A stretch of DNA of 64,000 nt from Calothrix brevissima NIES-22. GTDB lineage: Bacteria > Cyanobacteriota > Cyanobacteriia > Cyanobacteriales > Nostocaceae. Shown one piece after another: positions 23,118 to 28,155 of the stretch. The stretch lies in contig NZ_AP018207.1 in NCBI RefSeq assembly GCF_002367995.1, forward strand, positions 4,711,083 to 4,775,082, read 5' to 3'. Under the pieces are notes generated by a model. The model saw only the letters and a program-made list of their open reading frames with translations. It had not been told where the DNA came from and searched no databases. The position numbers were made by a program, and so were the translations under genes. Within the stretch, counting starts at the first letter, position 1. Every line of letters starts with the position of its first letter.

Positions 23118-24458
23118 ATGCCCGATATCTTATCATTGTTACAATGCTTGCTACCGCAGATAAACGCGACAACGATGCGGCAATTGAACCAAGTCATCCT
23201 GGCAATGTTAGCTATGAGTGGTCGAGTCACGATGTTGGGAATTGCGCGTTGGACAGGCGCAGGCGGTAGCTATCGGACGATGGGAAGATTTTTCTCGACA
23301 GTCATACCTTGGGCAACATTGTTTTGGCTGTTTTTTCGTAAACATTTGTGGCGAGAAAATGATGTGTACTTGCTGGCAGGAGATGAAGTTGTAGTTAGTA
23401 AATCGGGTAAGCAAACATACGGGGTAGATAGATTTTTTTCTAGCTTGGCCAGTAAACCAATGAATGGGTTATCGTTCTTCGTATTGTCATTAGTAAGCGT
23501 AGAAGAAAGGCAATCATTTCCGATTGGAATAGAACAGGTAATTAAAAGTGATGCCCAAATAAATAGCACCTTGCCAATCAAAAAAGTAAAAGCTAAAGAG
23601 AAACGTGGACGGGGAAGACCGAAAGGCAGTAAGAATAAAAACAAAACAGAAGTGATATTAACATCTGAACTCTTGTTAATTAAAAAGATGATTAACTCAC
23701 TATTTGAGCTAGTAGCTAACTTTATCCCCTTGACATACTTGGTAGTAGATGGTCATTTTGGTAACAACAATGCCTTGCAGATGGCACGACAAGTTAACTT
23801 GCACATAATTTCCAAGCTGCGCCATGATTCAGCATTATACATCCCTTATGAAAATCCTGACTCGAATAAACGTTCTCGTCGTAAATACGGGGAAAAACTA
23901 GACTACCGTAATCTACCTGAGAAATATTTGTGTAAAAGTGATATTGAAGATGGAATTCTTTCCTGTATTTATCAAGCTACTCTTCTTCACAAAGAATTTT
24001 CCCAGGCTATCAATGTAGTAATTTTGGTAAAAACCAATCTTAAAACTCAAGCTCGTAGCCATGTAATTTTATTTTCTAGTGACCTAGATTTGAAGGCTGA
24101 TAAGATTATTGACTACTACAAGCTACGTTTTCAAATCGAGTTTAACTTTCGTGATGCCAAGCAGTTTTGGGGTTTAGAGGATTTTATGAATTTGAGCCAA
24201 ACTGCTGTGACTAATGCGGCTAATCTTGCATTCTTCATGGTTAATTTATCCCATCATCTTCTGGCTGATTTCCGTAAACATAATCCTGGTTCTGGCATTA
24301 TTGACCTGAAAGCTTATTACCGTGGTTTTCGATATGTTCATGAAATGTTAAAAATACTTCCTCAAAAGCCTGAGCCTATTTTATTAGCCCAAATTTTTGC
24401 CAAGCTTACTTCTCTAGGACGTATTCATCCCATTTCCACAGGCGTCGAACCCTCGTAA
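23118..24458 (+). mobile_element. IS4-superfamily DDE transposase
   Basis: 446-residue intact transposase from ATG 23118. First catalytic Asp in AGDEVVVSKSGK (about residue 88), second in LVVDGHFGNN (about 211), and Glu in the YREK signature YKLRFQIEFNFRDAK (about 333-347), the hallmark of IS4-superfamily enzymes. A Lys/Arg/Gly-rich insert (KRGRGRPKGSKNKN) lies between. The terminal repeats could not be fixed by eye: sequence near 23050 (GAGGGAGGGCGTTTCG) and near 24445 (CGAACCCTCG) is only weakly inverted. The element marks the change from plasmid-like to chromosomal gene content, with a truncated gene on its left. Confidence 0.8.
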
Positions 24459-24488: not shown

Positions 24489-24610
24489 GTTATCGTCAAT
24501 GGTCAATGGTCAATAGTCATTTGTCATTTGTCATTTGTCATTGGTCATTTGTCTTCCTTGTCTTCCTTGTCCCCTTTGTCCTCCTTGTCCTTTTTCCCTA
24601 GCCCCTAATC
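24489..24610. repeat. Short tandem repeats (GTCAATG / GTCATTT / CCTTGTC types)
   Basis: Tandem heptamer-like units GTCAATG, GTCATTT and then TCCTTGTC/CCCCTAA units fill the gap downstream of prfB. These are the short tandemly repeated sequences characteristic of heterocystous cyanobacteria. Confidence 0.8.
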
Positions 24611-24618
24611 CCTATCCC

Positions 24619-25741
24619 CTAAGCTGGCGTACTCTCAACAAGTTGATTTTCTTGTCGCAGATAGGCTTGGATAAAGGCGTCAAGGTCGCCGTTCATGACA
24701 TCGGTAATGGCTGTGGTTTCTGTGTTGGTACGCAAATCCTTGACCATTTGGTAGGGGTGAAATACATAGTTACGGATTTGGTTACCCCAGGAAGCTTCGA
24801 CCATATCGCCGCGAATTTGGGCGATTTCTTGGGCGCGTTGTTCTCGGGCGATGACTAACAGCTTGGCTTTGAGACGGGTGAGGGCTTTCTCTTTATTTTG
24901 CAGCTGCGATCGCTCTTCTGTACAACGCACGGCTAAACCAGTGGGAAGATGCACAATCCGCACGGCTGTTTCGACTTTGTTGACGTTCTGTCCGCCTTTA
25001 CCACCAGAACGGGATGTAGTTATCTCTAAATCCTTTTCGGGAATGTCTAGCTGCACAGAACTATCTATTTGGGGCATCACTTCCACCCCCGCAAAACTGG
25101 TTTGGCGTTTACCGTTGGCGTTAAATGGGGAAATTCGCACTAAACGATGGGTACCAGTTTCCGATCGCAAATAACCATAAGCATAACGACCGGTAATTTC
25201 TAAAGTCGCCGATTTAATCCCGGCTTCATCCCCTTCTGACTCTTCTGCTAAAGTCACTTTATATCCGTGAGCTTCCGCCCAACGGGTATACATTCGCATC
25301 AGCATAAACGCCCAGTCTTGAGCATCCGTACCACCCGCACCGGCGTTAATTGTCAGTACTGCCCCTTTATCATCGTAGGGGCCGGAAAGTAATTGTTGTA
25401 ACTCCCACTGATCGAGTTCGTGGTTGAGTTTAGTAATAGTAGATTCCGCTTCAGTTAGCAGACTTTCATCAGTTTCTAACTCTAATAACTCAACCACAGC
25501 TTTCGTATCTTCTAGACTAGATTGCCATTGATGATACTGCTGGAGATGGGCTTTCAGGTCGTTGAGTTCTTGTAATGTTTCTTGGGCTGTCGTTTGGTCG
25601 TTCCAAAATTCCGGCTGGGCGGATATTTGTTCTAAATCTTGAATTTTGGCTGTCAGTGCAGGTACGTCAAAGATAGTCCTGGGTTTTACCCAGGCGATAA
25701 GCTAACGTTTCGATTTCGCGTTTGAGTTCTAAAACATCCAT
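24619..25741 (-). CDS. prfB: Peptide chain release factor 2, expressed through a +1 programmed frameshift
   Basis: The first 24 codons run from ATG 25741 ([19 protein letters not shown]) to an in-frame TGA at 25669-25667. A +1 shift there opens the main frame, giving 373 residues in total, close to E. coli RF2 (365). The body has the stop-codon recognition tripeptide SPF (RISPFNANG) and the catalytic GGQ ([12 protein letters not shown]). RF2 releases the peptide at UGA and UAA codons on the ribosome. The slip sequence CTTTGAC preceded by AGGA makes RF2 level self-regulating: when RF2 is scarce, the UGA is read slowly and the shift is favoured. A related gene lies immediately upstream. Confidence 0.95.
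25666..25682 (-). promoter_or_regulatory. prfB: prfB programmed frameshift site
   Basis: On the minus strand CTTTGAC (CUU slip codon, UGA stop, C) is preceded by an internal AGGA four bases upstream of CTT. This is the standard bacterial RF2 arrangement; +1 slippage at CUU replaces termination. Reading the +1 frame from GAC gives an uninterrupted RF2. Confidence 0.92.
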
Positions 25742-26059: not shown

Positions 26060-26106
26060 CTTCTCTGCGAGACGCTACGCGTTGGCGGAAGCCTCTCGCA
26101 GAGAAG
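26060..26106. repeat. Palindromic intergenic repeat
   Basis: CTTCTCTGCGAGA (26060-26072) pairs perfectly with TCTCGCAGAGAAG (26094-26106), 13 base pairs, with a 21-base loop. This type of dispersed palindrome is common in Nostoc genomes. It could also stop transcription of the RF2-like gene before prfB. Confidence 0.7.
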
Positions 26107-26180
26107 GCAGTTCATTAAATTAAGGTTTTCGGTAATTTTTGCCTAAGTTTTGTAAAAGTGTCCAGAGTGATATTCACAAA

Positions 26181-27288
26181 TTAACTATGAGTCATATATT
26201 GCTGTTGTAAATAAGCTGCAATCAAAAAATTAATCTCACCATTTAACACCTCTTTCACTGATGTAGTTTCTACATTAGTATATAAATCTTTCACCCGCTC
26301 GTAGGGATGCAAAATATATTCACGAATTAGCTTTGCAGATTGAGATTTTATGCCGCTAGGTTTAATTTGGGCAACATTATTAACACTTTGGGATTGCATT
26401 AAAAACCATAGTTTACTTTTAATAATCTCTAAGGCTTTTGCTTGGTTTTGTATTTGACTGCGTTCTTGGTCACAAAAGACAGTAATTCCTGTAGGAATAT
26501 GACATACTTTTACCCAAGTTTGTGAGCGGTTAATATTTTGACCATGCCAACGCCATTTAGTTATTTCTAAATCATTTTCGGGAATTTCCCAATTAATCGC
26601 TGTATCGCATATAGGTATGACTTCTACCCTAGCTAAACTTGTCTGTAAATTGCCGTTAGTCTGAAAGGGCGATATACGTTGTAATTGATGTATACCTGTT
26701 TCTGATTTAAGAAACCCGTATGTATAACGCCCGATAATTTCTAAGGTAGCGGAGCTAATTCCCACATCATCCCCATCAATTATCTCTACTAAATTAACTT
26801 GGTAATTGTGATTTCTGCCCCAATTCCAGTACAACCTCATTAATAAATATGCCCAATCTTGAGCATCTGCACCAGCAATTTCAGCAGTGATAGTAACTAA
26901 TGCACCCATTTGGTCGTTAGGGTGAGATAGTAACTTTTGTATTTGGACTATTTCTAGTTCTTGTTGAAGATGCTTCAAGTTAGATTGAGTTTCTTGCCAT
27001 AATTGCTCATCAGTTGAGGCTTGCAAAAGTTCTACAGCCGCTTTGATATCTTCGATAATGGCACACCAATTGCGATATTTTTCCTGTCTGGAAAATATCA
27101 AGTATTCTATGTCTTGAAGGATTTGATAAGCTGGTGCTGGATTTAGCCAAAAATTAGACTGAGCAATTATTGTTTCTAAATCTTGAATTCTGGCAGTTAG
27201 TTCTGTTTGGTCAAAGACAATCCTCTGCTTTGCCCAAGATATTTGCTAACCTTTCTACTTCCTGTTTAATTCCGGCAAGTTCCAGCAT
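26181..27288 (-). CDS. RF2-like paralog lacking the GGQ catalytic motif, with its own frameshift site
   Basis: Starts at ATG 27288 (MLELAGIKQEVERLANILG); in-frame TGA at 27213-27211 and a +1 shift lead into the long frame, 368 residues in all. It aligns with prfB over its length, including the decoding tripeptide SPF (RISPFQTNG) and DAQDWAYLLMRLYWNW. The catalytic loop differs: GGKGGQNVN of RF2 is WHGQNIN here, three residues shorter, with His replacing the first Gly of GGQ. The protein should bind stop codons but be poor or dead in peptide release. The frame is otherwise intact and the slip site preserved, which argues for selection rather than decay. Adjacent to and upstream of true prfB. 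Confidence 0.88.
27210..27228 (-). promoter_or_regulatory. Programmed frameshift site of the RF2 paralog
   Basis: CTTTGAC on the minus strand, with AGAGGA upstream, occupies the same place as in prfB. Sequence around it has diverged (GATTGTCTT against GACTATCTT), yet the slip heptamer is identical. Confidence 0.85.
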
Positions 27289-27426: not shown

Positions 27427-28155
27427 TTAATCGCGGCTATTGAGGGCAATTAACAGCCGCAAAATAAAAATGAACAGGTTGATGTAGGTGAGGTACATAG
27501 ATAAAGCTGCTGGTAAGTACTGATCGTTGCGATAAGTACGTGGCAAGATATAGAAATCAACCACAGATGCGCCAGCAAATAGAAATACTCCCAAGCCGGA
27601 AATGGCGATTTCTAACCAAGTTGGTGTGTAGACACCAAATAAGGCAAAGACAAATTGAGTCAAACAGACCACTACTAAGGCAATAAGGCCGAGAGAGATA
27701 GTTTTTGTCAAAGCCATCCCGTCTTGTTCCGAGAGATTGGAACCAATTTGACGGGCAACAATAAAGGTAACACCACAACCAAGGGCGGCTATGCCAATAC
27801 CTTGAATACCAACACCTTGGGTTCTCAAAGCGACAAAGACTAAGCCACTGAGAGTGTAACCAGATAAAAGGCTGTAGGTAGCCAGTAAAGGAAGTGCTAG
27901 ACCTTTATTGCCTTTTTCGGCAACATTTTGGGCGACAAAGAACAGAATTAACTCAACAATGACTGCACCAATAAAGGTGGGGAAAAACAGTCCGGGATGA
28001 TTGCGGATCACTCCTAAACCGCCGTAGGTACCTAGTGCGGTCAGTACAAGACCGCCACCTACATAGGGTAGGGCATTAGCTATGACATTAGGTCCTACGA
28101 GGGCTTGAGTTCTAGCCTCGCGGATAGCGTCGCGAAAATTGCTGGTGTTGCTCAT
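27427..28155 (-). CDS. Bax inhibitor-1 (TMBIM/YccA) family membrane protein
   Basis: 242 residues from ATG 28155. About seven membrane helices fill the protein (for example FFPTFIGAVIVELILFFVA and AISGLGVFLFAGASVVDFYIL). The C-terminal half keeps the family pattern: FAGASVVDFYI, then ALSMYLTYINLFIFILRLL. The acidic residues proposed to control a calcium-leak pore are represented by the Asp of VVDFY and the final Asp. Members are pH-sensitive calcium-leak channels in characterised bacteria; the cyanobacterial role is not known. Transcribed alone; a long spacer separates it from sigF. Confidence 0.85.
   Translation of the reverse strand: MSNTSNFRDAIREARTQALVGPNVIANALPYVGGGLVLTALGTYGGLGVIRNHPGLFFPTFIGAVIVELILFFVAQNVAEKGNKGLALPLLATYSLLSGYTLSGLVFVALRTQGVGIQGIGIAALGCGVTFIVARQIGSNLSEQDGMALTKTISLGLIALVVVCLTQFVFALFGVYTPTWLEIAISGLGVFLFAGASVVDFYILPRTYRNDQYLPAALSMYLTYINLFIFILRLLIALNSRD

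Follow-up and report, generated by a model that had tools for sequence, protein, structure and literature searches.

The locus analyzed here raises the question of why a cyanobacterium should carry, directly beside prfB, the gene for release factor RF2, a second RF2-like gene that keeps the +1 frameshift site of prfB and has an altered catalytic motif. The gene lies in a 64,000-nucleotide stretch of DNA from Calothrix brevissima NIES-22, hereafter the window. The sequence-only reading of this DNA had described a 368-residue RF2 relative beside prfB with an intact SPF tripeptide, and the coordinates and motif reads bear this out for the window copy, as they do for the heptamer CTTTGAC after 25 codons (27216-27210, minus strand; Table 1). 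The prfB gene of the window has a normal leader, slip site and catalytic motif. In the paralog the corresponding loop reads TKWRW-HGQNIN, with a His in place of the first Gly of the GGQ present in prfB. The GGQ had been described as lacking; the loop is three residues shorter and does carry His for the first Gly, but the Gly-Gln pair survives (HGQ), and the catalytic motif of the window copy is therefore altered rather than absent.

Table 1 Features of the paralog locus, in window positions
Feature	Position	Strand	Remarks
RF2-like paralog, whole	26181-27288	-	25-codon leader, CTTTGAC, then 343 codons; 368 residues in total
Zero-frame leader of paralog, MLELAGIKQEVERLANILGKAEDCL	27214..27288	-	25 codons, the last being the slip codon CTT
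+1 slip heptamer CTTTGAC of paralog	27210..27216	-	UGA in frame 0
Post-shift frame of paralog	26181..27212	-	343 aa + TAA; Pfam PCRF and RF-1 on 306-aa portion
SPF tripeptide, RF2 stop-codon recognition motif, in paralog	26664..26672	-	intact
WRWHGQN at the GGKGGQN loop site of paralog	26535..26555	-	3 residues shorter; HGQ for GGQ
GFLKSE of paralog	26700..26717	-	Phe codon corresponds to UGA in 14 Nostoc copies and to TGG in one
prfB proper (RF2)	24619..25741	-	leader ATG at 25741; slip site 25672-25666; intact GGKGGQ at 24988-25005
BI-1-like membrane protein gene	27427..28155	-	directly upstream of the paralog

Domain searches with a 306-aa portion of the window paralog detected PF03462 (PCRF) with an E-value of 2.4e-36 and PF00472 (RF-1) with an E-value of 1.2e-20, and the same portion scored 293.8 against NCBIfam TIGR00020 (prfB), below the cut-off of 370. 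The paralog is 49% identical to the prfB product of its own genome (query residues 6-301 of 306), and a genome search returned three RF-like matches in the host, namely the paralog, prfB and one 32%-identical match taken as RF1. A leader-plus-slip pattern derived from the paralogs matched the window once and matched none of 100 shuffles. The upstream gene at 27427..28155 encodes a putative BI-1-like membrane protein. Candidate promoters and terminators between the genes were rejected, as their counts lie near the shuffled level (8 promoter-like sites versus 5.8 in shuffles and 1 terminator-like site versus 1.0).

To find further copies we used the 306-aa portion as the query. Presumed RF1 proteins matched it only at about 1e-37, so a paralog can be recognized as a second match with an E-value far below that. 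By this measure the paralog is present in 55 of 217 genomes of the family, the genome of the window included (second match at 1e-60 or better, all 55 inspected), in 11 of 317 genomes from other families of the order (order search of 388 genomes, 1e-45) and in one of 326 genomes outside the order (G557; class search of 388 genomes, 1e-48). The total is 67 copies in 66 genomes, with G557 standing outside the 67-copy counts. No copy was detected in most of the genomes searched at the family, order and class levels by this E-value search, which would miss more divergent or truncated copies. A scan of named genomes with the leader pattern yielded 36 stretches, in Nostoc, Komarekiella, Amazonocrinis, Desmonostoc and Tolypothrix. 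The window paralog is not a private duplicate; many filamentous cyanobacteria carry one, and the non-GGQ orthologs next to prfB that the sequence-only reading had proposed to look for occur in dozens of genomes, 64 of 65 copies being without GGQ.

The arrangement of the locus recurs along with the gene. The prfB gene lies downstream on the same strand for 63 of the 67 copies; of the exceptions, G014 and G018 have the paralog about 4.5 kb upstream of prfB, and G143 and G316 have the two matches on separate contigs. The distance from the paralog stop to the prfB slip site has a median of 194 bases across copies versus 508 bases in the window, where a G+C-rich, palindromic-looking repeat (26060-26115) separates the two genes. 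Short T-rich tandem repeats follow prfB in the window (24500-24620), and just beyond it, on the opposite strand, a 446-aa open reading frame resembles an IS transposase (candidate, 23118-24458). Of the 67 copies, 49 have a BI-1-like gene ahead of them on the same strand; in 15 none was found within the upstream DNA covered, and three more have too little upstream DNA to judge. In the other family that has eight copies, the BI-1-like gene is upstream in just two. The copy from another order (G557) shows the gene order of the window, BI-1, paralog, prfB, and in G015, a genome without a detected paralog, BI-1 stands directly before prfB. One genome (G184; L066/L071) has two tandem paralogs ahead of prfB, one with a UAG and one with a UGA slip site.

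In a 131-row tree, which leaves out G105 and G162, a single branch with an SH-aLRT support of 100 separates 65 paralogs from 66 prfB genes. When an RF1 outgroup and G557 were added in a 53-row tree covering 24 of the 66 genomes plus G557, the 25 prfB genes still formed one clade at 100 with the paralogs outside it; the paralogs themselves, several of which have long branches, were not resolved as a single clade. Long branches, those of G557 and G316 among them, and the brevity of the tree searches leave the position of the root unsure. The paralog appears to be old and mostly vertically inherited, its common descent being evident from sequence, and a single old duplication would be the simplest reading, although it is not proven.

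The catalytic loop distinguishes the two groups of proteins most clearly. GGQ is present in all 66 prfB rows versus one of 65 paralogs (G142), the motif counts covering 65 copies with G105 and G162 left out. Six of the 65 keep Gly-Gln in the loop, as HGQ (two copies), NGQ, DGQ, QGQ or GGQ, and in five of these, the window copy, G214, G204, G248 and G487, the residue before it is not Gly; GQ was not found in the loop region of the other 59. Twenty residues that are invariant in prfB are kept by fewer than 10% of paralogs, among them G222, K224, G225, G226, Q227, K231 and V232, which lie in or beside the catalytic loop, and 19 others are kept by 97% or more of paralogs, including W119, Y127, G165, E170, G172 and H174. 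A separate alignment (A1) comprised 38 of the 42 intact paralog copies and 10 prfB rows. An AlphaFold2 model of the paralog has a pLDDT of 87.2 and a pTM of 0.81, and pLDDT falls below 50 over three or more residues at 224-226 alone, at the loop. The best PDB match to this model is E. coli RF2 (1gqe), with a TM score of 0.78 by query length. From the loss of GGQ we infer that the paralogs have probably lost peptidyl-tRNA hydrolysis.

Stop-codon recognition had been proposed to be kept. The SPF of the window copy supports this, but SPF is not a trait of the family; it is kept in 35 of 65 paralogs and lost in 30, with SPV in 12, and one Nostoc clade combines SPV with an inserted residue. The loss of SPF in 30 of 65 copies implies that the paralog family as a whole does not share a stop-codon-specific role. 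Two further features of individual sequences were observed. The sole GGQ paralog, G142 (L041:2962-4053; loop SGRGGQN), and G149 have decoding regions of mosaic appearance, in which one segment seems to derive from another allele. Sixteen of the 67 paralogs, L006, L009, L010 and L011 among them, carry an in-frame insertion MPTxGYAYA that resembles a short dispersed repeat and leaves the reading frame unbroken; its DNA is ATGCCTACGGCTGGCTACGCCTACGC in the four copies shown.

If the catalytic loop has been lost, is the gene still maintained? The Nei-Gojobori dN/dS of the paralog is 0.327 (0.286-0.377) for nine non-UGA pairs, which is not near 1, and that of prfB is 0.044 (0.035-0.054) for 14 pairs from the same genomes, so that the paralog value is about seven times that of prfB. 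The pooled pairs were hand-picked from the tree as independent, nine of them non-UGA and five UGA, the latter covering 10 of the 14 copies that carry a shared in-frame UGA (see below). All-pairs medians, taken over 54 of the 67 copies and solely over pairs with dS between 0.05 and 1, are 0.307 for the paralog (784 pairs) and 0.051 for prfB (868 pairs). These ratios indicate that the paralog protein is under purifying selection, with far weaker constraint than prfB. The sequence-only reading considered decay unlikely, and for the family as a whole mere decay does fail as an explanation, given a dN/dS well below 1 and a slip site in 65 of 67 copies. Further frame breaks in relatives, which it had named as a sign of a decaying duplicate, are found in part; 42 of the 67 copies are intact, 12 carry only the shared UGA and 13 are broken otherwise. 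Ten of these 13 have extra or other stops (G136, G165, G152, G111, G087, G088, G208, G014, G018 and G413), and three, which were excluded from the intact-copy list, have a truncation, a frame change or a replaced 5' end (G105, G147 and G162). Some of the broken copies may be assembly errors. Among 26 internal stops 19 are UGA, 14 of them at one shared site, and the UGA excess is unusable as evidence. Since 13 of 67 copies are broken and the gene was undetected in most genomes, the role of the paralog would be conditional or dispensable.

The +1 slip site is preserved more faithfully than the identity of its stop codon. CTTT followed by a frame-0 stop and C after an open leader is found in 65 of 67 copies, the window copy included; the two without it, G147 and G162, whose 5' ends are replaced or truncated, have no in-frame CTTT, and no sense codon was seen at the place of the slip stop among the 67. 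The stop is UGA in 53 copies, UAG in eight and UAA in four. The expected conservation of CTTTGAC therefore holds for the slip site with its stop and only in these 53 for its UGA form. RF2 could read the stop (UGA or UAA) in 57 of the 65, including the window copy. At least eight changes in stop identity are needed on the tree (64 rows), four if only UAG versus not UAG is scored. All 66 prfB genes checked have CTTTGAC, and according to the available part of PMC12421855, in which the strings 'cyanobacteri' and 'paralog' do not occur, 98.6% of 8,164 prfB slip motifs have TGA, 1.4% TAA and none TAG. In prfB the ribosome can slip because the stop in frame 0 is read slowly (PMC12421855). Unless it loses one T, a functional gene has to retain the slip site, whose conservation therefore argues for expression through the slip and not for regulation. 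The proposed synthesis of the protein under RF2 limitation cannot apply throughout the family, as UAG, an RF1 codon, in eight copies and UAA in four argue against a strict RF2 sensor. The slip site of the paralog appears to be preserved as a recoding site whose tie to RF2 has been loosened in some lineages.

The earlier analysis did not anticipate that 14 copies would carry a second UGA. Among the 54 family copies, these 14, all in one genus (Nostoc), have TGA at one alignment column about 165 codons after the slip site, where prfB has the Tyr of YGYLRSE and other paralogs have Tyr, Phe, Cys or Leu, or TGG in G146. The context is GGC TGA CTN in 13 of the 14 and GGC TGA ATA in G111. The UGA state requires three changes on the tree, which is compatible with one gain and two reversals (G142 and G146). 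Eight of the 14 copies match records of several projects, which makes a shared sequence error unlikely. For the five UGA pairs dN/dS is 0.304 (0.233-0.396) downstream of the UGA and 0.539 (0.408-0.725) upstream of it; because kappa was set to 2 as well in a fixed-omega run, its likelihood gap of 60.0 downstream and 31.9 upstream does not test one parameter purely. When neutral evolution was simulated 300 times on a synonymous-distance tree, 11 to 14 of the 14 copies gained a downstream stop (mean 13.78), versus none of the 14 observed. Readthrough would explain the shared UGA most simply. The constraint beyond the UGA could in part also reflect occasional recombination with intact alleles, as G142 and G149 look mosaic. 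G146 is the only member of the UGA clade that lacks both UGAs (a UAG slip site and a TGG codon), a single case that is suggestive.

Other ways of passing this UGA were considered and rejected. Selenocysteine insertion was dismissed because none of the 14 UGA genomes has a tRNA-Sec over the Rfam cut-off; matches below the cut-off, which 14 control genomes also give, were not counted. Internal re-initiation was likewise discarded, since from -5 to +75 codons there is no in-frame start common to all 14 copies and none with a Shine-Dalgarno (SD) motif (six SD-like motifs, sought 5-16 bases upstream of in-frame starts). Synonymous identity of the UGA copies is 0.86-0.89 in the three 15-codon windows spanning the UGA versus a mean of 0.83 (sd 0.06), and reaches 0.94, the top of the table, in the window just after it; at the equivalent place non-UGA copies have 0.62-0.64 versus 0.68. 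This signal is too weak to claim a recoding element.

Taken together, we hold with moderate confidence that the gene encodes a non-releasing RF2 paralog that keeps the RF2 fold and is made through a +1 frameshift that depends on a stop codon and was inherited from prfB. Such a protein would enter the A site of the ribosome in the manner of a release factor, without release. When termination is slow, a state that would also raise its own synthesis, it could compete with RF2 or serve as a mark on ribosomes that are stalled or stop-bound. PDB titles record GGQ-mutant factors (GAQ, AAQ, GGD and GGS) in ribosome complexes, which makes binding without release physically plausible. In the UGA-clade Nostoc the second in-frame UGA would tie synthesis even more closely to slow termination at UGA, and in UAG-slip lineages RF1 would take the place of RF2 in this scheme. 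An extended form, which we offer tentatively and think unlikely, casts the paralog as a double sensor of termination capacity, in which a +1 slip at CUU-UGA-C would be followed by UGA readthrough, UAG-slip lineages would sense RF1, and the protein would sit on stop-bound or stalled ribosomes without releasing them. If so, the UGA clade would show a steep increase in output solely under RF2 shortage.

Competing explanations give these features different weight. It is possible, although on the unlikely side, that the RF2 fold has been reused to bind and protect particular transcripts, in which case codon reading and hydrolysis would be irrelevant and the frameshift merely inherited. The precedent is PrfB3 of vascular-plant chloroplasts, a binder of petB 3' RNA that the available part of PMC3555233 describes as an RF2 paralog that has lost GGQ and SPF; the loss of GGQ in 64 of 65 copies and of SPF in 30 of 65, the predicted retention of the RF2 fold and the roughly seven-fold higher dN/dS than in prfB are all compatible with such a change. 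However, SPF persists in the other 35 copies, and the same source reports PrfB3 to be missing from the sequenced cyanobacteria, which would make any likeness a case of convergence. We consider it less probable that the paralog is a redundant RF2 duplicate that lost its catalytic loop and is slowly decaying, disappearing lineage by lineage. Its patchy presence, the variable loop and SPF, the 13 copies with stops or truncations besides the shared UGA and the relaxed constraint relative to prfB would fit, but the pooled pairs give dN/dS values of 0.30-0.54 with all upper bounds below 0.73, the 14 UGA copies are free of the downstream stops expected under neutrality, 65 of 67 copies keep a slip site with a stop, and the gene is present in two orders.

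The constraint on both halves of the UGA copies could also mean that these are split genes, whose segment beyond the UGA would be translated on its own, from an internal start, into a C-terminal protein. The re-initiation scan, which found no start common to all 14 copies and no start preceded by an SD-like motif, speaks against this, and we regard it as quite improbable. It is more doubtful still that the paralog is a weak or slow release factor whose remodeled loop, HGQ in the window or SGRGGQ in G142, hydrolyzes in special stop contexts or on stalled ribosomes. Gly-Gln does survive in the six copies noted above, but not in the remaining 59 as far as the loop region reveals, and changes of the first Gly of GGQ cripple release, which counts against this reading.

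The preferred account, a non-releasing paralog made through an inherited frameshift, would make these proteins a naturally occurring family of bacterial release factors, apparently without release activity, that has long been kept beside an active one. No description of such a bacterial RF2 paralog was found in the available portions of the open-licence PMC literature. The family also presents an unusual set of recoding features, RF1-type UAG slip sites together with a shared in-frame UGA and a constrained frame beyond it. Both the use of a release factor without release and the rewiring of stop-codon recoding between release factors are now testable.

Among known systems the closest is RF2 itself. 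The paralog shares with prfB the PCRF and RF-1 domains, the RF2 fold, a leader of 24-25 codons, CTTTGAC and an adjacent locus. It differs in the loss of GGQ in 64 of 65 copies, in the sub-cut-off TIGR00020 score of its 306-aa portion, in a dN/dS about seven times higher, in its place outside the prfB clade (support 100) in both the 131-row and the 53-row trees, and in a UAG slip stop in 8 of 65 copies versus 0 of the 8,164 prfB motifs covered by the available part of PMC12421855. PrfH is, like the paralog, a bacterial member of the class-I RF superfamily, but the TIGR03072 score is 40.2 versus a cut-off of 166.65, with the match confined to residues 96-244 of the 306-aa portion. PrfB3, as far as the available part of PMC3555233 describes it, is likewise an RF2 paralog without release (here predicted), with GGQ lost and, as in part of our family, SPF lost as well; unlike it, the paralog is bacterial, stands beside prfB, keeps the +1 frameshift and retains SPF in 35 of 65 copies, including that of the window. 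Dom34 and MRPS35 belong to other lineages, Dom34 to a separate archaeo-eukaryotic superfamily, but according to the available part of PMC6514570 they too are inactive RF relatives that have lost the catalytic Gln and have a role at the ribosome.
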